A stretch of DNA of 64,000 nt from Arthrobacter agilis (lineage in GTDB: Bacteria > Actinomycetota > Actinomycetes > Actinomycetales > Micrococcaceae). Made by a program: the position numbers and the translations under genes. The DNA lies in contig NZ_NFSC01000028.1 of NCBI RefSeq assembly GCF_002157505.1, positions 310,001 through 374,000 on the forward strand. The letters run 5' to 3'. The first letter of the stretch is position 1. Every line of letters begins with the position of its first letter. The notes beneath the pieces are model-generated. The model saw only the letters and a program-made list of their open reading frames with translations, was not told the origin of the DNA and searched no databases. Shown here piece by piece: positions 5,199 through 30,384 of this stretch.

Positions 5199-6396
5199 GG
5201 CCGGCCCCCTTGCCACTCCCCCGGCGCGAACCGCCGCCGGTGGGTTTCTTCAGCGTCAACAGCGGGATCTCGCGCTCCGCCCGCGTGAGTGAGCCGTGCT
5301 GCCCCACCATCTCGAACGCGGCGGGCTGCACGCGCCGCCCGTCCATGAGGGCGATGCCCTCGCGTGCCAGGACGAGGAGGTCCCCGATGCGCGGCACCAC
5401 GGAATCCGCCACGGCACCGAAGTATCCCCCTGTGATTGCCTCGTCCCGGGTCAGGACCCATGCGCGGGACCCGAAGGCCTCGTGCCAGCGCAGTGCCAGC
5501 GCGTCGCGCTCACTGCTGGTGAGCGCCGGGTCGAGGTAGAGGTGGAGCATCCGGGCTTCCCCGCCCGTGTGGGCCACGCCCTCGACGAGCTCCGGATGCT
5601 CGGAATAGTCGATGCGCTGGGACGGCGGGACGTCCACCATCCCGTGATCGGCGGTCAGGAGCAGCAGCGTGTCGGGCGGTACCCGGCGGGCGAGGAGCTT
5701 CAGCGCGGCGTCAAGGTCCTCCAGCGTCCGCAGCCACTCCCGGGAGTCGACGCCGTGCCGGTGGCCCGCCTTGTCCAGGTCGTTGAGGTAGAAGTACATG
5801 AGCGTGCTCGGCGCCTTCGCCAGGTGCTCCGCGGCCGCGTCGATCCGTGCGTGGATGGTGTCGGCGCCGACGAACGTCCCGCCACGCAGTGCCGCCCGCG
5901 TCATGGGCGAGTCACCGAAGCGGGGCTGGCTGACCGTCACGACCGGCAGGTGCGCCGACACCCGTTCGAAGACGGTGGCGTGGGGCTGCCACGCTCGCGG
6001 GTCGACGCCGTCGTCCCAGCCACCGAGCATGTTGACCACCCTCCCCTGCGCGGGGTCGAGGACGTCGTACCCCACCAGGCCGTGCTGCCCGGGGGGCAGG
6101 CCCGTTCCCAGGCTGGCGAGCGACGCCGCCGTGGTGGACGGGAACGCCGAGGAGAGCACGCGCGCGGAGTCCAGGCTCTCCCGCAGGAAGGGCGCGTGGG
6201 CGGCGTACTTCCTGAGCAGCGCCATGCCGAGACCGTCCACCATCACGATGGCGATCCGCTTTGAGGAGGGCAGCGCGAGCGCGTTGGTGAAACCGTCGAC
6301 GCCGAGCGCCGCAGCGGCACTGGTCATGACCTCGGCCAGGGTGGAGGCGCCGTAGGCAGGGGGCGAGGGCAGGGGCTCTCGATGCGGGAAAGGCAT
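5191..6396 (-). CDS. Alkaline phosphatase family protein (nucleotide pyrophosphatase/phosphodiesterase type)
   Basis: A 401-residue metal-dependent phosphohydrolase of the alkaline phosphatase superfamily. Visible motifs: IVMVDGLG (first metal Asp), FPSTTAAS (nucleophile Thr), DLDKAGHRHG, TADHGMVD and VGQHGSLT, which carry the remaining metal ligands. The ATG at 6396 is preferred over a TTG at 6399. The gene begins six bases after the stop of the DUF5998 gene and its stop overlaps the tdk start, so the three are probably one operon. The substrate cannot be read from the sequence; nucleotides or phosphodiesters are plausible. The Arg/Gly-rich C-terminal tail is probably disordered. Confidence 0.88.
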   Translation of the reverse strand: MPFPHREPLPSPPAYGASTLAEVMTSAAAALGVDGFTNALALPSSKRIAIVMVDGLGMALLRKYAAHAPFLRESLDSARVLSSAFPSTTAASLASLGTGLPPGQHGLVGYDVLDPAQGRVVNMLGGWDDGVDPRAWQPHATVFERVSAHLPVVTVSQPRFGDSPMTRAALRGGTFVGADTIHARIDAAAEHLAKAPSTLMYFYLNDLDKAGHRHGVDSREWLRTLEDLDAALKLLARRVPPDTLLLLTADHGMVDVPPSQRIDYSEHPELVEGVAHTGGEARMLHLYLDPALTSSERDALALRWHEAFGSRAWVLTRDEAITGGYFGAVADSVVPRIGDLLVLAREGIALMDGRRVQPAAFEMVGQHGSLTRAEREIPLLTLKKPTGGGSRRGSGKGAGRG

Positions 6397-22023: not shown

Positions 22024-25000
22024 TCAGGGCCGGTGCGTTGCTTCGATCGGCAGGGCGGCGGAGGTTCGGGCGCCCAGCGCCACCACCTCGTCACACAGGG
22101 CCGCCTCGTTCCGGTCGTGGGTCACGAGGAGGACCGCCGTTCCGGGGAGTCCGCGCCGGAGATCCGCCAGCAGCGAGCGGGCGCCGTCGGCGTCGAGGTG
22201 GGCCGTGGGCTCATCGAGGAGGACGACGCCGGACCGGGTCAGCAGGGCCCGCGCCACCGCGAGCCGCTGGCGCTGGCCGCCGGAGAGACGCGAGCCACCA
22301 GCTCCCGCCTGCGCGTCCAGCCCCTCCGCGAGGCCCGCCACCATGTCCGCCAGCCCGACGGCGCGGATCGCCGCGTCGAGCTCCTCGTCGGTCGCAGGGT
22401 CACCGGGCGAACGCGCGAGCTGAAGGTTCGAGCGCAGGCTGGAATTGAAGAGATGGCTTTCCTGGGGGCACCAGGCGATGCGCGGCGCCTCATCGGGGGT
22501 GGCGGGCCGTCCGTCCACGAGCAGCCTGCCGCTGTCGAGCGGAAGGAATCCCAGCAGTGCCCCGATCAGGGTCGATTTGCCACTGCCCGAGGGTCCGGTA
22601 AGGCCTGTCCAGCGTCCTGGACGGAGTTCGAGGCTGACATCGCTCACCACCGGGCGGCCCGGCTCGTAGCCGACGCCGGCGTCCTCGAGGGAGACCGTCC
22701 GCACCGGCGGGGCAATATGCCCCGCGCCGCTCCTGCCGCCCGACTGTCCGCCCGGCTGCCCGTCATCGGACGCGCCGATCCAGGGCGTGATGCGACGCGC
22801 CACAGCCCACAGCGGACCCCAGTGCTGGACAGCCGACGTCCCGGCGACGAACGGTTCGATCAGCGCGAGCTGCATCAGCACCAGCACGGCCGTGATGTCG
22901 GCAGGCAGACCCGTAGCACCGAGAAGGATCCCGAGCGACGCGGTGCAGCACACAGCGACGATGACCGCGGTCGAGGCGCCCGCAGCGGCCGCCGAACGGC
23001 GGGACGCCGCTGCGGCGCGGCCGTCCAGGCGCCGCGTCGCGTCGAGGGCGGCACGGTGTGCGCCGTTCACCCTCAGATCGGGTGCTGCCCTCAGGAGGCT
23101 GGTGACCCGTTCGAGGGCCTCTGCGCGCACCTGCACGCCGGCGGCCCCGGCGGCCTGCTCCCGCGCCGCGGCGAGAGCCGGCGCGAGCACGAGGGCACCG
23201 CCGACGGACACGAACTGCCATCCGAGGGACGCAGGATGCAGCACGGCGGTGGTGATGAGCGCCGCCACGCCCGTGAGCACCGCGGTGACGAACGGCAGGA
23301 CGGCACGCGATGACAGATCACGCAGCTCGTCGATATCGCCGACGAGCCGCTCGATCCCCCCGGATCCGCGGGCGATCGTGCGCCAGGAGCGGCCGGCCTG
23401 GAGGAGGCCGGTCCAGAGCCGCAGCCGGGTGTCGTCGGCCCGGAAGAACACGGCTTGATGCAGCCAGAGGCGTTCCGCATACCGCAGGAGGGAACGTCCG
23501 ATGCCGAAGAAGCGCACGCCGACGATGGCGGTGAGGAGGTACAGGATCGGTGGCTGCTCGGCGGCCCGGACGATCAGCCACCCGCTCAGTGCGGTCAGCG
23601 CGACGGCGAACACCGAGGCACCGAGGCCCAGGGCGGCTGCCGCGACGAATCGCCGGTCCCAGGGTCGGACGAGGGCCAGCACTTCCCTGGCCGCCGCGAG
23701 CCATGAGTTCGTGGCGCGGGACCGCCGGAGCGGCGCGGGCTCGTCGGGTGACACCGGCCGTCCCGCAACCATGGACGTGGAAGGGCGCGGGGCAGGACGG
23801 CCCGGGGTCGCCTGTCCGGCGAGACGATCACCGGGACGATCACCGAGGCGGATCTCGGCCGACGCTACGCCTGCCGTCTCGTCGTCGTGCGCGATCAGGA
23901 GGACCGTCAGGCCCGGCCGGCGCGACTGGATGGCGCCGCGGATGGCGCGCGATGCCTCAGCGTCCACGTGCGCGGTCGGCTCGTCCAGCAGCAGGAGCCG
24001 GACCGACGGGTCCTGGGCCCTGAGCAGGGCACGTGCGACGGCGACCCGCCGCAACTCACCGGGGCTCAGCTCTGCGCTGCGCCGCACCGCGAGTCCCGCA
24101 CCGCCGACGGCGGCCAGGTGTGCCTCGATGGCCGGGGACTCCGCGGGCAGCCCGCCGTACAGGGCGAGCTCGTCGCGGACCGTCCCCATGAGGAGTTCCG
24201 GATGCTGCGGAACCCAGGCGATGCCGCCGTCGAGCCCGGTGATGCGCCCTTCCAGACGGAGCCCGGCCGGGACGGCCGCTCCCCCGGCGAGCGCGCGCAC
24301 GAGGGTGGACTTGCCCGAACCGCTCGGGCCCCGGAGGGCGGTGATGGAGCCTGGTTCGAGGACGAAGGAGACATCCTCGAAGACGGGCGTGAGCACGCCG
24401 TCGTAGCGGGCCGAGAGCCGCTCGACGCGGATGCTGCCGGAGCCGGCCGGGAGCTGTCCTGCCGGGCGCGGCGCCACCGGGCGCGCAGGGGCGCCGATCA
24501 CCGCGCGCACCCGGGCGCCGGCCTCCTCGCCGTCCTCGCTGGCGTGGTGGGCGGCGCCGACGTCGCGCAGGGGCCCGTAGCACTCGGGTGCCAGGATCAG
24601 CGCGATGAGGGCCGTCTCCAGGCCGAGGTCCCCGTGGATGAGCCGCACGCCCGCGAACACCGCGACGACGGCGACCGAGATCGTGCTGATGAGTTCGAGC
24701 GCGAGTGATGAGAGGAAGACCGTCCGGAGCGTCGTCATTGTGCGCGATGTGTAGGTTCCGGCGATGTCGCGCAGCGCGCGCGTCTGCTCGGAGGCACGGC
24801 CCAGTCCCACGAGGACGGGTAGTCCCTTCGCGAGTTCGAGCAGGTGGTCGGACAGGCGCCCCAGGGCGGCTGCGGCCTGCTGCGTGCGTTCCTGGGTGTG
24901 GAGGCCGATCAGTGCCATGAAGGCGGGCACGAGCGGCACCGTGAGGACGATGATGAGGGCGCTGACCCAGTCGGCTGCCAGGATCCGCGCGCCAACGAGG

Positions 25001-25536
25001 AGCGGGACCGCCGCGCAGGTGATGAGCGCGGGGAGGTACTGCGTGTAGTACTTGTCGAGGCCGTCGATCCCCCGGGTGAGGAGCACCGCGAGGGAACCCT
25101 GTCCGCTGCCGGCCGGCGCTGCCTGCGTCGTGCCGCCGTCGTCGAGCACGCGGAGCAGGGCGGCCTCGCGCAGCCGCTCCTTGACCCCGAGCGCGAGGCG
25201 GGCGGCGGTGGCGTCCTGGCCCCACGCCGCGAGGGTCCGCAGCGCGGCCCCGAGGACTCCCTGCAGCAGGACGGCGCGGACGTCGAGGGAGCCGGCGGCG
25301 ACGGACGCGATACCGAGTGCGAGGGCCTGGGCCAGGAGCACCAGCCCTGCGGCCCGGGCGGCGGCGAGGACTCCGAGAAGGTAGACCGCCGACGTCGAAC
25401 CGGCGGCTCCCGCCGGTCCCCCGGACCTCAGCGCGACCATCGGCGACACCCGCCGAAACTCGTGTCCGGCCTCGTGTCCGCTGGTCTCGGCGGCAGATCC
25501 GCTGGTCTCCGCGGCGGCGCTCGGGTGTTCGGGCAT
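22024..25536 (-). CDS. cydDC: Fused CydDC thiol/heme ABC exporter
   Basis: A 1170-residue fusion of CydD and CydC, needed for assembly of cytochrome bd, exporting glutathione/cysteine or heme-linked substrates in other bacteria. Each half has about six membrane helices and an ATPase: first half GPSGSGKST, an atypical signature LSPGELRRVAVA and LLLLDEPTAHVD; second half GPSGSGKST, LSGGQRQRLAVA and VVLLDEPTAHLD. The start MPEHPSAAAET at 25536 is chosen with AGGA upstream, 20 bases after cydB. The frame stays open far upstream through cydB, but that part is an out-of-frame shadow. It is the third gene of the cydA-cydB-cydDC operon. Confidence 0.92.
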   Translation of the reverse strand: MPEHPSAAAETSGSAAETSGHEAGHEFRRVSPMVALRSGGPAGAAGSTSAVYLLGVLAAARAAGLVLLAQALALGIASVAAGSLDVRAVLLQGVLGAALRTLAAWGQDATAARLALGVKERLREAALLRVLDDGGTTQAAPAGSGQGSLAVLLTRGIDGLDKYYTQYLPALITCAAVPLLVGARILAADWVSALIIVLTVPLVPAFMALIGLHTQERTQQAAAALGRLSDHLLELAKGLPVLVGLGRASEQTRALRDIAGTYTSRTMTTLRTVFLSSLALELISTISVAVVAVFAGVRLIHGDLGLETALIALILAPECYGPLRDVGAAHHASEDGEEAGARVRAVIGAPARPVAPRPAGQLPAGSGSIRVERLSARYDGVLTPVFEDVSFVLEPGSITALRGPSGSGKSTLVRALAGGAAVPAGLRLEGRITGLDGGIAWVPQHPELLMGTVRDELALYGGLPAESPAIEAHLAAVGGAGLAVRRSAELSPGELRRVAVARALLRAQDPSVRLLLLDEPTAHVDAEASRAIRGAIQSRRPGLTVLLIAHDDETAGVASAEIRLGDRPGDRLAGQATPGRPAPRPSTSMVAGRPVSPDEPAPLRRSRATNSWLAAAREVLALVRPWDRRFVAAAALGLGASVFAVALTALSGWLIVRAAEQPPILYLLTAIVGVRFFGIGRSLLRYAERLWLHQAVFFRADDTRLRLWTGLLQAGRSWRTIARGSGGIERLVGDIDELRDLSSRAVLPFVTAVLTGVAALITTAVLHPASLGWQFVSVGGALVLAPALAAAREQAAGAAGVQVRAEALERVTSLLRAAPDLRVNGAHRAALDATRRLDGRAAAASRRSAAAAGASTAVIVAVCCTASLGILLGATGLPADITAVLVLMQLALIEPFVAGTSAVQHWGPLWAVARRITPWIGASDDGQPGGQSGGRSGAGHIAPPVRTVSLEDAGVGYEPGRPVVSDVSLELRPGRWTGLTGPSGSGKSTLIGALLGFLPLDSGRLLVDGRPATPDEAPRIAWCPQESHLFNSSLRSNLQLARSPGDPATDEELDAAIRAVGLADMVAGLAEGLDAQAGAGGSRLSGGQRQRLAVARALLTRSGVVLLDEPTAHLDADGARSLLADLRRGLPGTAVLLVTHDRNEAALCDEVVALGARTSAALPIEATHRP

Positions 25537-25556
25537 GGACGTCCTGGTGGCTCCGC

Positions 25557-26579
25557 TCACAGGGCTGTAACGGCGTGCGCCGCGGGAATGCTGGCCTCGG
25601 AGACACGCTGCCGGAAGACCCAGTATGTCCATGCCTGGTAGGCGAGGACAAGCGGAACTCCGAAGCACGCGACCACGCTCATCAGGCCGAGCGTGTAGGG
25701 CGAGGAGGATGCGTTCTGCACCGTCAGGTTGAATGCCGGGTCGAGGGTCGAGGGCAGGACCACGGGGAACGCCGCGCCGAAGATCGACCCCACGAGCGCG
25801 AGCATCCCGACGCCCAGGCCGGCGAACGCGCGCCCGTCGCGGCCGGCGACGGAGGAGCGGTAGGCGGCGGCGAGGGCTCCCACGGCGAGGACGACGACGA
25901 GCCAGGTCACCACCGACCCGGTGTCGAGCTGGACGAGGAGCGCCCACGCCAGGAACGGGATCATCGCGACCGGCAGCAGGCGGCGGAACAGGCGGTCCGC
26001 CTGCGCCCGCACTCCCCCCTCGGTCTTGAGCGCGACGAAGGCCGCGGCATGGACGAGGCAGAAGAGGACGACACCGGCCGCTCCGAGGAGCGCGGAGCCG
26101 GTGGCCCAGGCGAAGGCCCCGCCCACCCGGTTGCCGTCGGCGTCGAGCGGCAGTCCCGTCGTCGTCAGCGCGAGGGCCGCGCCGATGCCTGCGGCAGCCG
26201 TGAAGGAGCCGAGGGCGATCGCCCAGTCCCAGCGGTCGCGCCAGGCGTCGCTGTCCCGCTTGCCGCGGTATTCGAAGGCGACGGCCCGGAAGATCAGGCC
26301 GAGCAGCACGAGCAGGAAGGGCAGGTAGAGCGCCGACAGGAGGGAGGCGTACCAGTGCGGGAAGGCGGCGAACATCGCACCGATCGCCGTCACGAGCCAC
26401 ACCTCGTTGCCGTCCCACACGGGGCCGACGGTGTTGAGGAGGACGCGGCGCTGGGTGTCGTTGCGGGCCATCAGCTTCATCAGCATCCCCACTCCGAGGT
26501 CGAAGCCCTCGAGGAAGAGGTAGCCGGCCCACAGCACGGCGATCAGTACGAACCAGACTGCAGGCAGTGCCTCGGTCAT
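25557..26579 (-). CDS. cydB: Cytochrome bd ubiquinol/menaquinol oxidase subunit II
   Basis: A 340-residue membrane subunit of the high-affinity terminal oxidase. Typical CydB features are the N-terminal WFVLIAVLWAGYLFLEGFDLGVG and GPVWDGNEVWLVTAIGAMFAAFP, with about eight or nine membrane helices. The start MTEALPAVWF at 26579 is chosen over 26615, which would add a hydrophilic leader. It lies 78 bases downstream of cydA and 20 upstream of cydDC in one operon. Confidence 0.95.
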   Translation of the reverse strand: MTEALPAVWFVLIAVLWAGYLFLEGFDLGVGMLMKLMARNDTQRRVLLNTVGPVWDGNEVWLVTAIGAMFAAFPHWYASLLSALYLPFLLVLLGLIFRAVAFEYRGKRDSDAWRDRWDWAIALGSFTAAAGIGAALALTTTGLPLDADGNRVGGAFAWATGSALLGAAGVVLFCLVHAAAFVALKTEGGVRAQADRLFRRLLPVAMIPFLAWALLVQLDTGSVVTWLVVVLAVGALAAAYRSSVAGRDGRAFAGLGVGMLALVGSIFGAAFPVVLPSTLDPAFNLTVQNASSSPYTLGLMSVVACFGVPLVLAYQAWTYWVFRQRVSEASIPAAHAVTAL

Positions 26580-26657
26580 CGGAGAACCTTCCAGGCGTTC
26601 GGGGACGTCAGGCATACGGGAGCAGGAACGGTTGCAGCGACCGACTCGGCGGCCGGG

Positions 26658-28238
26658 TCAGTAGGCGAAGGCCAGCACATCGCCGTCGTCCTTCCTGTCG
26701 GTGTCCGACGCGTCGTCGTGCCGGTCTCCGGCGTGCGCCAGCTCCGGCATGGCCGACGCCGTGCCACCCCGCACGTAGGTGAAGAGGAGCCGGACCTCGA
26801 CCACCAGGAGGACGGCGTACACGGCCGTCAGTGCGACGAGTGAGGCGACGAGTTCGGCCAGCGACACGCCGGGTGAGACGGCCGCCGCAGTGAACATGAA
26901 CACGCTATCGATACCGGAGGGATCCGGATTGGGCGCGACGACGAACGGCTGCCGTCCCATCTCGGTGAAGATCCAGCCCGCGGAGTTCGCTCCGAAGGGA
27001 GCGAGGATGCCGAACACCGCGAGCCTCATGAGCCACCGGGACTCCGGCACGGTCCCCCGACGGAGGACCCAGAGGGCTGCGGCGGCTGCGGCCGCGGCGA
27101 TCGCGCCGAATCCGATCATGATGCGGAATCCCCAGTAGGTCACCTCCATGACGGGCAGGTAGTCGATCGCGGTGCCCGCGCGCTCGCCGTACATCGGGTC
27201 GTCCGGGAGCGTGGTGCCGTACTTCTCCTGGTACTCGGGCAGGAGGGTGTTGACGCCCTTGACCTCGGTGGTGAAGTCGCCGTTGGCGAGGAAGGACAGC
27301 ACCCCGGGAACCTCGATGACCGCGGTGATGTCGTCGCAGCTCTGCGCACCGAGGTTGCCCACGGACAGGATCGAGAAGCCCGTGCCGTCATGGCATGCGG
27401 CTTCCGCGGCCGCCATCTTCATGGGCTGCTGGTCGAACATGAGCTTGCCCTGCAGGTCGCCCGTGATGCCGGTGCCCGCGAACGCGATCATGGCGACGAC
27501 GGCGCCGGCCCGGGCGGAGCGAAGCCATACCTTGTGGTCCACCGCGCCCCGGGCGCCGCCCGGGTCGCCGACGACGACGGTGCCGTCCTCGCCGAGGGTG
27601 TCGAGGCCGTCGCGGCGCCGCTTCCACAGGTGGTACCAGCTGATCCCGAGGAGGAAGGCTCCGGCGACCGCAAGGGCGCCGAAGACCGTGTGTGGGAAGG
27701 CGACGAGGGCAGTGTTGTTGGTGAAGACCGCCCACGCATCCACCATCACCGGCCGACCGTCGACCATCTCGACACCCACGGGGTGCTGCATCCAGGAGTT
27801 GGCCACGAGGATGAAGTAGGCGGAGAGGACCGAAGCCAGGACGGCGGCCCAGAGGGACAACAGGTGGACGAGCCGGGGCAACCGCCCCCACCCGAAGATC
27901 CAGAGGCCGAGGAAGGTCGACTCGACGAAGAAGGCGAGCAGCGCCTCCATGGCCAGGGGTGCCCCGAAGACGTCGCCCACGAAGCGGCTGTATTCGCTCC
28001 ACGCCATACCGAACTGGAATTCCTGCACCAGTCCCGTGGCCACGCCCATGATGAAGTTGATGAGGAAGAGCTTCCCCCAGAACTTCGTCATGCGGAGGTA
28101 GTGCTCCTTGCCGGTGCGGTGCCACATCGTCTGCATTCCGGCGACCAGGAGCCCGAGCCCGATGGTCAGGGGGACCATGAGGAAGTGGTAGACAGTGGTG
28201 ATTCCGAATTGCCACCTGGCAATTTCCAAGGCTTCCAT
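26658..28238 (-). CDS. cydA: Cytochrome bd oxidase subunit I
   Basis: A 526-residue heme- and quinol-binding subunit. Near the N-terminus RWQFGITTVYHFLMVPLT carries the conserved His. FPHTVFGALAVAG and MEVTYWGFRIMIG hold candidate heme b558 ligands, and GRQPFVV is conserved near the C-terminus. The Q-loop looks like the short type. RBS AAAGGG precedes the ATG. Expression is probably controlled by the BlaI-type repressor: three operator-like palindromes lie 41-117 bases upstream in the divergent promoter region. Confidence 0.95.
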   Translation of the reverse strand: MEALEIARWQFGITTVYHFLMVPLTIGLGLLVAGMQTMWHRTGKEHYLRMTKFWGKLFLINFIMGVATGLVQEFQFGMAWSEYSRFVGDVFGAPLAMEALLAFFVESTFLGLWIFGWGRLPRLVHLLSLWAAVLASVLSAYFILVANSWMQHPVGVEMVDGRPVMVDAWAVFTNNTALVAFPHTVFGALAVAGAFLLGISWYHLWKRRRDGLDTLGEDGTVVVGDPGGARGAVDHKVWLRSARAGAVVAMIAFAGTGITGDLQGKLMFDQQPMKMAAAEAACHDGTGFSILSVGNLGAQSCDDITAVIEVPGVLSFLANGDFTTEVKGVNTLLPEYQEKYGTTLPDDPMYGERAGTAIDYLPVMEVTYWGFRIMIGFGAIAAAAAAAALWVLRRGTVPESRWLMRLAVFGILAPFGANSAGWIFTEMGRQPFVVAPNPDPSGIDSVFMFTAAAVSPGVSLAELVASLVALTAVYAVLLVVEVRLLFTYVRGGTASAMPELAHAGDRHDDASDTDRKDDGDVLAFAY

Positions 28239-28278: not shown

Positions 28279-28355
28279 CTTCTACATGCCGTAGAAGAAG
28301 TTCTTCTACACATCGTAGAACAAATCGGGCGTCATTTCTACGTGGAGTAGAAATG
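28279..28355. promoter_or_regulatory. Three BlaI-type operators between cydA and blaI
   Basis: Three palindromes of the form TTCTAC-N5-GTAGAA sit at 28280-28296, 28304-28320 and 28336-28352. The first extends to 19 bp and the third to 23 bp with perfect flanks. They are spaced 24 and 32 bp start to start. TAC...GTA cores are what BlaI/MecI/CopY winged-helix repressors recognise. Their place in the 221-base divergent region suggests control of both the cyd operon and the blaI-M56 genes. Confidence 0.8.
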
Positions 28356-28459
28356 TTGGCCGCGACGCTGTACGTTAGATGCACCACGCTTCTAGCTCCC
28401 GGTGGGGAGCGGATCCAGGTCCGAAGGGACCGGGATCGCGTTTTGATTGAAGGAAGAAC

Positions 28460-28828
28460 ATGGCAACGCTCGGAGACCTCGAACGCACAGTGATGGACCT
28501 GCTGTGGGCTGCGCCGGAGGCATTGACCGCGAATGAGCTGCGCGACGCCATCGCCGAGGCGCCGTCGGGAGAAGTGGGACGGGAACTCGCCGTCACCACG
28601 GTGCTCACGGTGCTGTCGCGCCTGGAGAAGAAGGGCCTTGTGGAGCGGGAGCGCGACAGCCGCCCGCACCGATACAGGTCCGTCACGAGCCGTGAAGACC
28701 ACACCGCCGAACTCATGCACGAAGTTCTCGTGACGGCGCCGGACCGCGAAGCCGTCCTGGCCCGCTTCATCGGCAGCGTCTCGGAGGCAGAAGCCGAGAC
28801 GCTCCGCAAGCTGCTCGGCGGCAGCTGA
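28460..28828 (+). CDS. BlaI/MecI/CopY-family repressor
   Basis: A 122-residue dimeric winged-helix repressor (MATLGDLERTVMDLLW; recognition region VTTVLTVLSRLEKKGLVERE), with a C-terminal dimerisation helix pair. RBS GAAGGAAG precedes the ATG. It is followed seven bases later by an M56 metallopeptidase gene, the usual BlaI-BlaR pairing, and is divergent from the cyd operon. The three palindromes in the shared promoter region are its likely sites. Regulation of cytochrome bd is inferred, not shown. Confidence 0.9.
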   Translation: MATLGDLERTVMDLLWAAPEALTANELRDAIAEAPSGEVGRELAVTTVLTVLSRLEKKGLVERERDSRPHRYRSVTSREDHTAELMHEVLVTAPDREAVLARFIGSVSEAEAETLRKLLGGS

Positions 28829-28835
28829 CCCGTCC

Positions 28836-29840
28836 GTGTTCTGGGCCTCGTACCTGCTCGCGGCACTCGCGATCATCCTCGCGTGGCCCGCCCCGATCGC
28901 ACTGTCACGCGCTTCCTGGCCCGCCCGCGCGCCCTTCACCGCGATGGTGCTCTGGCAATCGATCGCACTCGCCGGTGGGCTGTCGATGATCGGGGCCATG
29001 CTCGTCTGGGGCCTCCAGCCGCTGGGCGACAACCTCGTGTCGGCATCGGCGGGGTTCTTCAACATCCTGATCGATGACGAGTCGGCCCAGACACTCGGCG
29101 TGATCCACGTCTTCGCAATCAGTGCCGCCACCCTCTTGTTCGGGCACCTCGTCTTCACCCTGGTCCTGACCTTCGTCAGGATCCGCCGCCAGCGCAGACG
29201 GCACCGGGACATGCTCAACCTGCTGAGCTCTCCCGCCGCCGATCAGCCCGCGACGCTCGTGATCAGCCATCCCGCGCCCGTGGCCTACTGCCTCCCCGGC
29301 GGGGCCCGATCGGTCACCGTCATGTCCGACGGCCTCATGGGCCTCCTGTCCCGCGCCGAACTCGACGCGGTCCTCCTGCACGAGAGCGCGCACCTGCACC
29401 AACGCCACCACCTTCTGCTCTGGGCCTTCGCTGCGTGGCGGTCGGCCCTGCCGTGGCTGCCGACGTCGCAGCTGGCACAGCGGGCGGTGAGCGAACTCAT
29501 CGAGATGCTGGCCGACGACGAGGCCCTCCGTACCGTGGATGAGCCGACGCTCGTGCGGGCCATCGCCATCGTCGGCTCCGGCGCCCTGCCATCGTCCCCC
29601 TCGCCGCGGGACGCGCTCGAGGATCCCCTCGGCGAGGAGGGCCGGCTGGGCTCGGGAACCGGGTCGACGGCCGTGACCGGCGGCACCGCGGATGCGCAGT
29701 CGACAGCCCACCGGCTGCGGCGGCTGCTCACTCCCCTGCCGCCCCTCAGCAGGATCCAGCAGGCCGCAGCCCTGTCCGCCGCGGGCCTGCTGCTGGTGGT
29801 TCCGCCCGTTCTTCTGGTCGCTCCCGAACTCCTCGGCTGA
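28836..29840 (+). CDS. M56-family membrane metallopeptidase (BlaR1-like, no sensor domain)
   Basis: A 334-residue membrane protease starting at GTG seven bases after the repressor stop. It has several hydrophobic segments (residues 2-20, 35-60, 88-112 and a C-terminal one) and the zinc motif HESAH within LDAVLLHESAHLHQRHH. In classical BlaR1 a C-terminal penicillin-binding domain senses beta-lactam; here the protein ends after the last membrane segment, so no such sensor exists. It probably inactivates the neighbouring BlaI-type repressor in response to an unknown cue. Confidence 0.85.
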   Translation: MFWASYLLAALAIILAWPAPIALSRASWPARAPFTAMVLWQSIALAGGLSMIGAMLVWGLQPLGDNLVSASAGFFNILIDDESAQTLGVIHVFAISAATLLFGHLVFTLVLTFVRIRRQRRRHRDMLNLLSSPAADQPATLVISHPAPVAYCLPGGARSVTVMSDGLMGLLSRAELDAVLLHESAHLHQRHHLLLWAFAAWRSALPWLPTSQLAQRAVSELIEMLADDEALRTVDEPTLVRAIAIVGSGALPSSPSPRDALEDPLGEEGRLGSGTGSTAVTGGTADAQSTAHRLRRLLTPLPPLSRIQQAAALSAAGLLLVVPPVLLVAPELLG

Positions 29841-30093: not shown

Positions 30094-30384
30094 ATGCGCA
30101 AGACATCACTACTCGGCGCCGCAGTCTGCGCCCTGGCACTGGCAGGTCTGAGTACGTCCCCGGCCTTCGCCGCAGGCCAGGTCGAGAGAGGCACTGAGCA
30201 CGCGAATTCCATCTGTTCGTTTTCGGGCCTGAACGACGATCCTAGAGAGGCCTACCCTCACGGCGGCCGTGTGCAGTCCTACGGACAGTTGGTGAGGCTT
30301 GGGCTGAAGGCGGACTTCCCGAGCCCGGGCGATGTATGTAAGCTGCCCTACTCCCCCGAGGCTCCTGAGCCTGAAGGTCCGTAG
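30094..30384 (+). CDS. Small secreted protein of unknown function
   Basis: A 96-residue protein with a classic signal peptide (MRKTSLLGAAVCALALAGL), likely cut after AFA near residue 27. The mature part of about 69 residues is hydrophilic, has two cysteines (Cys41 and Cys82) that could form a disulfide, and ends in a Pro/Glu tail. GAGG lies seven bases before the ATG. I do not recognise the family. It is isolated between the M56 gene and convergent parE, behind a hairpin-rich leader. Confidence 0.7.
   Translation: MRKTSLLGAAVCALALAGLSTSPAFAAGQVERGTEHANSICSFSGLNDDPREAYPHGGRVQSYGQLVRLGLKADFPSPGDVCKLPYSPEAPEPEGP

Follow-up and report, generated by a model that had tools for sequence, protein, structure and literature searches.

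What does a BlaI-type repressor control in Arthrobacter agilis when its gene stands back to back with a cytochrome bd operon? The question is raised by a stretch of 64,000 nucleotides of this genome (the window, i.e., the whole stretch that was analysed), in which an earlier note had described three TTCTAC-N5-GTAGAA palindromes between cydA-cydB-cydDC and a BlaI/M56 pair. We find that the palindromes are exact and do lie in this gap (28280-28296, 28304-28320 and 28336-28352). It is very probable, from comparison of related genomes, that they are operators of the adjacently encoded BlaI repressor, which would cover much of aerobic respiration and would be relieved by an M56-type protease lacking a sensor domain.

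Genes and predicted operators of the locus

The palindromes had been said to fill the divergent region; they span only 73 bp of a cydA-blaI intergenic gap of 221 bp. The blaI and protease genes are on the same strand with 7 bp between them. A small predicted secreted protein without a Pfam match is encoded downstream of the protease gene (30094-30384). The features of the locus, in window positions, are as follows.

22024-25569, minus strand: cydDC-like fused ABC exporter, start codon approximate (ABC_tran, E 1.7e-49, two stretches; named from position and ABC domains)
25557-26615, minus strand: cydB, cytochrome bd oxidase subunit II (PF02322, E 5.5e-98)
26658-28238, minus strand: cydA, cytochrome bd oxidase subunit I (PF01654, E 2e-149)
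28280-28296, no strand: predicted operator 1, the cydA-proximal member of the cydA pair; exact palindrome, pair spacing 23-26 bp in 57 loci, pair also at six cydA loci away from blaI
28304-28320, no strand: predicted operator 2, the cydA-distal member of the pair, holding the putative cydA -10 TACGAT (minus strand, 28317-28312); exact palindrome, spacer position 3 is T in 57/57
28336-28352, no strand: predicted operator 3, the blaI operator; exact palindrome, kept as a single site in 10/11 named loci without cydA
28340-28335, minus strand: putative -35 TAGAAA of cydA (this clade), in an arm of operator 3; from sequence, 17-bp spacer
28348-28353, plus strand: putative -35 TAGAAA of blaI, in an arm of operator 3; from sequence, 17-bp spacer
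28371-28376, plus strand: putative blaI -10 TACGTT, 17 bp past the -35; from sequence, region kept as GTA..tT in an alignment of 30 genus loci
28460-28828, plus strand: blaI, BlaI/MecI-family winged-helix repressor, 122 aa (Pfam PF03965, E 5.7e-22)
28836-29840, plus strand: M56/M48-like putative membrane zinc protease, 334 aa, BlaR1-like without the beta-lactam sensor domain (HExxH and E223, structural model, Foldseek, Pfam)

Counted with up to two mismatches, the palindrome occurs six times in the window (three exact, three with two mismatches) against 0.16 expected, a number reached by none of 100 shuffles; the two-mismatch matches at 646, 43941 and 44615 were set aside as chance. The earlier note had suggested a motif scan of the whole genome, and the scan yielded further sites. 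The 3.88-Mb genome has 5 exact sites against 0.006 expected under a first-order Markov model trained on 14 stretches of the same genome, and 17 sites in all with at most one mismatch, against 0.44 expected. Fourteen of the 17 are intergenic, gaps making up 0.149 (about 15%) of the sequence examined (binomial for at least 13 of 17, 2.4e-8), and the cydA-blaI gap is the only one found in this genome to hold more than one site. Counted against our main reading are the three intragenic sites, in metX-, ABC- and glmU-like genes, which we set aside as chance, and one site that has no recognised respiratory neighbour. Eight sites in the genome match only the core, CTAC-N5-GTAG; inspection by eye found no respiratory gene near seven of these, and the eighth (C25:50647) precedes ctaCD and is conserved.

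Whole-genome counting is ruled out as proof, since a reversed-pattern control exceeds the motif at two mismatches in this genome (160 versus 100) and the excess at one mismatch is modest (17-18 matches for the motif versus 10-11 for the control in three genomes). The Markov expectation for the reversed pattern is only 1.55 and 34, the latter for up to two mismatches, where 160 were found; the model sets the expectation several-fold too low for patterns of this sort. The excess of exact sites is too large to come from this underestimate. Hence, the case rests on the exact sites and on their conserved position across species.

A pair of sites for cydA and a single site for blaI

We compared the loci of the best 80 of 202 named relatives, obtained with a narrow query alignment of 5 sequences; BlaI is 97-98% identical in Arthrobacter agilis, A. 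bussei and Arthrobacter sp. Leaf234, which places the host in the agilis group of the genus. At least one palindrome precedes blaI in all 80 named loci and, on sequence only, in 35/35 genus genomes examined. A divergent cydA is present in 69 of the 80, with three sites in 62, two in 6 and one in a single locus, where the start of cydA is 3.8 kb away. Ten of the 11 named loci without cydA have one site; the other (L264, genome G030) keeps two sites though cydA was not found there, which we count against the main reading.

Spacing was measured in 57 three-site loci; the other five of the 62 had a blaI match that did not start at 6001 and were excluded. The cydA pair is 23-26 bp apart throughout, and the third site lies 21-236 bp beyond it, at a distance of 85-236 bp in 38 of the 57. 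In five genus genomes cydA is located away from blaI, at six loci (two in G008); all six carry the operator pair, and blaI there keeps one site. A cydA match is absent from 4 of 38 genus genomes, namely G011 (99% complete), G030 (98%), G057 (94%) and G058 (83%), and in G011 blaI persists together with the sites of ctaC, ctaE, qcrC, hemQ, ctaB and ctaA. These comparisons indicate that the three palindromes are a cydA pair plus one blaI operator and not one array. An array of three equal operators, as had been proposed, is ruled out by the distance of the third site in 38/57 loci and by the two-site cydA loci elsewhere.

Several loci have further peculiarities. L244 and L245 (genomes G017 and G001) have cydABDC away from blaI, with an operator pair of its own and next to genes that by eye encode IS21-like transposases; this cyd operon is possibly mobile and would then arrive pre-wired to the host BlaI. 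Genome G008 has two cydAB loci (L246 and L247) with the operator pair at both, and no cydDC was called behind the L246 copy. One record labelled Vibrio cholerae strain 35D (L260) has an Arthrobacter-like blaI-cyd locus with 94% BlaI identity; its label is probably wrong, because match position and identity agree with those of G026.

Sites at other respiratory genes

In this genome, sites neighbour ctaE, the gap between ctaE and qcrC, hemQ, ctaB and an ABC pair upstream of a ctaA-like gene. Further neighbours are CtaG, a TlpA-CcdA-ResB-type operon and sucCD, and sites are also found at an HdeD-like gene with a small membrane gene behind it and at a 113-aa membrane gene; ctaC-ctaD has a two-mismatch site. 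The names hemQ, ctaB, ctaE, qcrC, ctaC, ctaD, sucC and atpB come from NCBIfam matches above cut-off and CtaG from Pfam, whereas qcrA, qcrB, trpD, tkt, CcdA, ResB, atpI, metX, glmU, ctaF and sucD were named by eye only, and ctaA and TlpA have NCBIfam matches only below cut-off.

Conservation within the genus was scored, per locus, in the best-scoring 30 of 35-38 genomes with a match. The site is exact in 30/30 loci at blaI (sites are present at the five other genus blaI loci too) and in 30/30 at qcrC; at hemQ it is exact in 29/30 and has one mismatch in the other. It is present with one mismatch in 30/30 loci at ctaE, and in 30/30 each at ctaB and ABC-ctaA with one fixed mismatch. None of 59 permuted half-sites had an exact match, and at one mismatch they matched on average at most 0.07 of 30 loci. 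Upstream of ctaC, CTCTAC-N5-GTAGTA, which has two mismatches, occurs at -86 to -124 in 18/18 sequences (the 17 of 19 genus stretches that hold ctaC, plus this genome), and 59 permuted half-sites at two mismatches averaged 0.08 and never exceeded 1. The sites at the cytochrome c maturation, CtaG, sucCD and HdeD-like genes recur in 4/4 genomes (G000, G004, G010 and G024), and that of the 113-aa membrane gene in 2/4. The ATP synthase operon has a one-mismatch site in 15/30 genus loci versus none for 20 control patterns; as a target in this genome it was rejected, there being no site at up to two mismatches and a degenerate left arm, and we count this absence against the main reading.

The arms are fixed while the spacer drifts at blaI, cyd and hemQ. 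At ctaE and ctaC, and partly at ABC-ctaA and qcrC, the spacer too hardly varies; common ancestry thus contributes to the conservation of these sites, and we count this against the main reading. From the positions of the sites, both oxidase branches appear to share the predicted operator.

The HdeD-like gene (a sub-threshold DUF308 match) and its small membrane neighbour, which has no Pfam hit, have a common conserved operator in 4/4 genomes (L014:5395-6457; L378:3636-4680; L382:3499-4446; L390:3415-4382), and the pair is a candidate for an unknown respiratory gene. An exact operator is also present in one of the scanned genomes (G010, L384:4075-4091) before a Crp-like regulator, and in another (G004, L389:3913-3929) between an RlmH-like gene, named by eye, and membrane/DUF1775 genes.

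Overlap with putative promoter elements

Position 3 of the spacer, read on the cydA strand, is T in 57/57 distal sites, which gives a TACNNT -10 hexamer, versus 8/57 proximal sites. As this hexamer is preserved in the spacer of the distal site, binding there should block transcription. In several Pseudarthrobacter-type loci TTTACA is seen by eye 18 bp upstream of the cydA -10. Its counterpart in the window is a TAGAAA inside operator 3, 17 bp off, and the blaI promoter would use the other arm likewise.

At other targets the right arm itself may be the promoter element. The base that follows it is T, making TAGAAT, in 30/30 qcrC, 30/30 ctaA and 15/15 atp sites, and GTAGAA(T) is likely to serve as the -10 hexamer TAGAAT in several targets. 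The atp region offers cases of operator loss: all seven aligned rows extending to this position have a decayed left arm but keep GTAGAAT (5) or GTAGGAT (2), as would be expected if the right arm doubles as a promoter element. In L406, L407, L411, L417 and L419, GTAGAAT is kept and the left arm of the operator is gone, and by this comparison the operator appears lost and the promoter retained. At ctaB, TATGAT comes straight after the palindrome in this genome, but the two are about 16 bp farther apart in 5/30 loci. Inspection of the hemQ and ctaE sites gave no evident arm acting as a -10, which, like the variable distance at ctaB, counts against the main reading. The overlap where it exists would fit repression by occlusion.

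The BlaI and protease proteins

The blaI product matches PF03965 (Penicillinase_R) with 78.7 bits versus a cut-off of 22.6 over residues 4-119 and is the only such match in the genome (3.88 Mb, 99% complete). It is far below the NCBIfam cut-offs of the resistance-associated families, with 19.7 versus 180 bits for BlaI_of_BCL and 20.8 versus 250 bits for MecI_of_mecA. Its best solved relative is 2g9w (E 1.3e-18), which we take to be Rv1846c, the M. tuberculosis BlaI. In 9 sequences Phe103 is invariant, and in an alignment with the penicillinase repressor 1sd4 it falls on Phe102. Staphylococcus aureus BlaI is cut between Asn101 and Phe102, with Phe102 as the P1' residue, according to an excerpt of PMC9834060.

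In the protease, H182, E183, H186 and E223 are invariant in 16 homologues, with HExxH at 182-186. The step from H186 to E223 is 37 residues, equal to that between H205 and E242 of BlaR1 (PMC9834060). Pfam assigns 37.9 bits to M48 (cut-off 20.3) and 20.6 bits to M56 (cut-off 31). The AlphaFold2 model has a mean pLDDT of 86.7 and long helices; compared with the PDB by Foldseek, BlaR1 is the top match (E 5.8e-3, TM 0.36) and ZMPSTE24 the third, none reaching an E value of 0.001 or less. Neither Pfam nor the model revealed a PBP-like or transpeptidase sensor domain in the 334-aa protein.

BlaI loci beyond the genus

A BlaI relative was found in 114 of 197 genomes drawn from the class. In 19 of the 29 best class-level loci (own locus excluded), a CydA-like gene lies divergent from blaI within 1.5 kb, and eight of these 19 genes are only 27-31% identical. 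A CTAC/GTAG palindrome is present in 19 of the 29 best loci. A pair of TACTAC/TACGAC-type sites at a distance of 22 bp is found in 4 of the 10 loci without it and in L436, a locus of the same family. Related palindromes, in which TACTAC or TACGAC is combined with GTAGTA or GTCGTA across a spacer of 5, precede blaI in other families. Five loci of one family (f22) have TACGAC-N5-GTAGTA in three cases, TACTAC-N5-GTAATA in one and neither in one; no cyd gene was found near blaI in these five genomes, and the neighbours at three of the loci are presumably mycobacterial-type. One locus with divergent blaI and cydA (L198) had no detectable palindrome, which we count against the main reading. In two loci of other families (L202:2372-6920 and L444:3710-4656), blaI lies near genes that by eye belong to cytochrome c maturation (ResB/TlpA-like), which also hints at a role in respiration.

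Discussion

Comparison of the genus suggests a mechanism in which BlaI dimers would occupy the 17-bp 6-5-6 palindromes over promoter hexamers and exclude RNA polymerase. In the divergent gap, the close operator pair would repress cydABDC and the single site would repress blaI and the protease gene. The predicted targets of this single BlaI extend to the bc1-aa3 complex (ctaCD, ctaE and qcrCAB), to the steps that make heme O and heme A (ctaB and ABC-ctaA), to heme synthesis through hemQ and to the cytochrome c maturation genes; CtaG and sucCD would belong to them as well, and part of the genus would add the ATP synthase operon. Repression would end once the M56-type membrane protease encoded next to BlaI cleaves the repressor immediately ahead of the conserved Phe103. 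The lack of a beta-lactam sensor domain in this protease makes an internal trigger probable, i.e., the respiratory, redox or heme state.

The role of BlaI proteins at respiratory genes has a precedent. The closest solved relative, the sensor-less protease and the cyd link all make the present pair resemble M. tuberculosis BlaI-BlaR (Rv1846c-Rv1845c). An excerpt of PMC5473688, citing Sala et al. 2009, states that M. tuberculosis BlaI binds the cytochrome bd and ATP synthase promoters; hence, a link to cyd has in principle been made before. The same excerpt describes M. tuberculosis BlaR as having no extracellular sensor domain and states that it is unknown how the organism responds to beta-lactams without one (PMC5473688). 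In the available text of PMC12565901, M. tuberculosis BlaI binds and represses Rv1303, which is co-transcribed with the atp genes. A transposon screen, as summarised in part of PMC7058343, found blaR to be needed for the use of heme or hemoglobin as an iron source, which fits a link to heme. The M. tuberculosis system differs in that its reported targets, in these excerpts, include blaC (PMC5473688) and ftsQ (PMC12565901). Among the open-access matches listed, we found no report of a BlaI regulon over bc1-aa3, heme O/A, hemQ or cytochrome c maturation. The staphylococcal BlaI-BlaR1 and MecI-MecR1 systems are similar in repressor family, in the HExxH...E spacing and in the Phe at the cleavage position; unlike them, the Arthrobacter protease has no beta-lactam sensor domain and the predicted targets are respiratory and not resistance genes. 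A largely identical gene set (ctaE-qcrCAB, ctaCF, ctaD, cydABDC, ctaA, ctaB and hemQ) is controlled by HrrSA in Corynebacterium glutamicum, as described in a portion of PMC7337898. However, HrrSA is a heme-responsive kinase and response regulator, unrelated in protein family and mechanism, and it mostly activates respiration and represses heme synthesis (PMC7337898, same portion).

It is unlikely that BlaI is an activator or a dual regulator at some targets and tunes the oxidase branches in opposite directions. Such a role might allow for a ctaE site as remote from the chosen start codon as it is (-197) and for the absence of a -10 hexamer from the arm at ctaE and at hemQ, but the site covers the likely -10 at cydA, ctaA, qcrC and atp and stands directly upstream of TATGAT at ctaB in this genome. 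BlaI/MecI proteins are, moreover, known as repressors. The proposal that BlaI chiefly controls cytochrome bd and itself through three equivalent operators, as a respiratory switch, seems quite unlikely. The adjacency of cydA and blaI, the divergent cydA in 69/80 named loci and the singular multi-site gap would suit it, but these operators are also invariably present at heme genes and at the other oxidase branch, the sites split into two plus one with the third 85-236 bp from the pair in 38/57 loci, and blaI and the sites at six other genes outlive cydA in the nearly complete genome G011.

The palindromes could also belong to another DNA-binding protein, e.g., a redox or heme regulator, with BlaI a mere neighbour. 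Such gene sets are indeed under other regulators in actinobacteria, HrrSA of Corynebacterium glutamicum being one (PMC7337898, in part). We hold this to be very improbable, as the motif precedes blaI in all genus and named loci examined, even where the locus has no cydA, its twofold 6-5-6 symmetry suits a dimer, and related spacer-5 palindromes precede blaI in other families. Finally, the pair could be a system for responding to beta-lactams that has extended its regulon to respiratory genes. This would account for the resemblance of BlaI and the protease to staphylococcal BlaI and BlaR1 and for the tie between M. tuberculosis BlaI and blaC given in the excerpt of PMC5473688. The protease, however, has no PBP-like domain, and inspection by eye revealed no beta-lactamase next to the sites, which makes this extremely improbable.

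Our preferred reading is therefore of a BlaI repressor with a broad respiratory regulon. The earlier note was right, as far as comparison shows, on BlaI, cyd and autoregulation: the palindromes are tied to BlaI, to cydA and to blaI itself by their presence in 35/35 genus genomes and 80/80 loci, by the pairs that accompany relocated cydA and by the -10 overlap. It appears too narrow in making the oxidase operon the main target, since the same operator is found before ctaCD, ctaE, qcrCAB, the genes of heme O/A synthesis, hemQ and more, and an operator common to both branches argues against a simple switch between bd and aa3. The ordinary job of BlaI in these bacteria, these results suggest, is to control respiration and not antibiotic resistance.

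Taken further, and only tentatively since we hold it to be somewhat doubtful, the sensor-less BlaI-M56 pair may be the ancestral master repressor of aerobic energy metabolism in Actinomycetes, with a protease that reads the respiratory chain or heme pool directly, a release order set by operator number and match quality, and beta-lactam resistance as a derived use. If this were true, destruction of BlaI would free the two oxidase branches, the assembly of heme O/A and of cytochrome c, succinyl-CoA synthetase and ATP synthase, and cyd, with its two perfect sites, would come last.

In summary, the predicted regulon points to a class of stimulus (respiratory, redox or heme), a list of targets and an order of induction. 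A compact regulon over much of oxidative phosphorylation, in soil bacteria that are harmless, makes the signal of a sensor-less BlaR-type protease directly testable. It would give respiratory plasticity in these bacteria one shared regulator, and this bears on tolerance to respiratory inhibitors.
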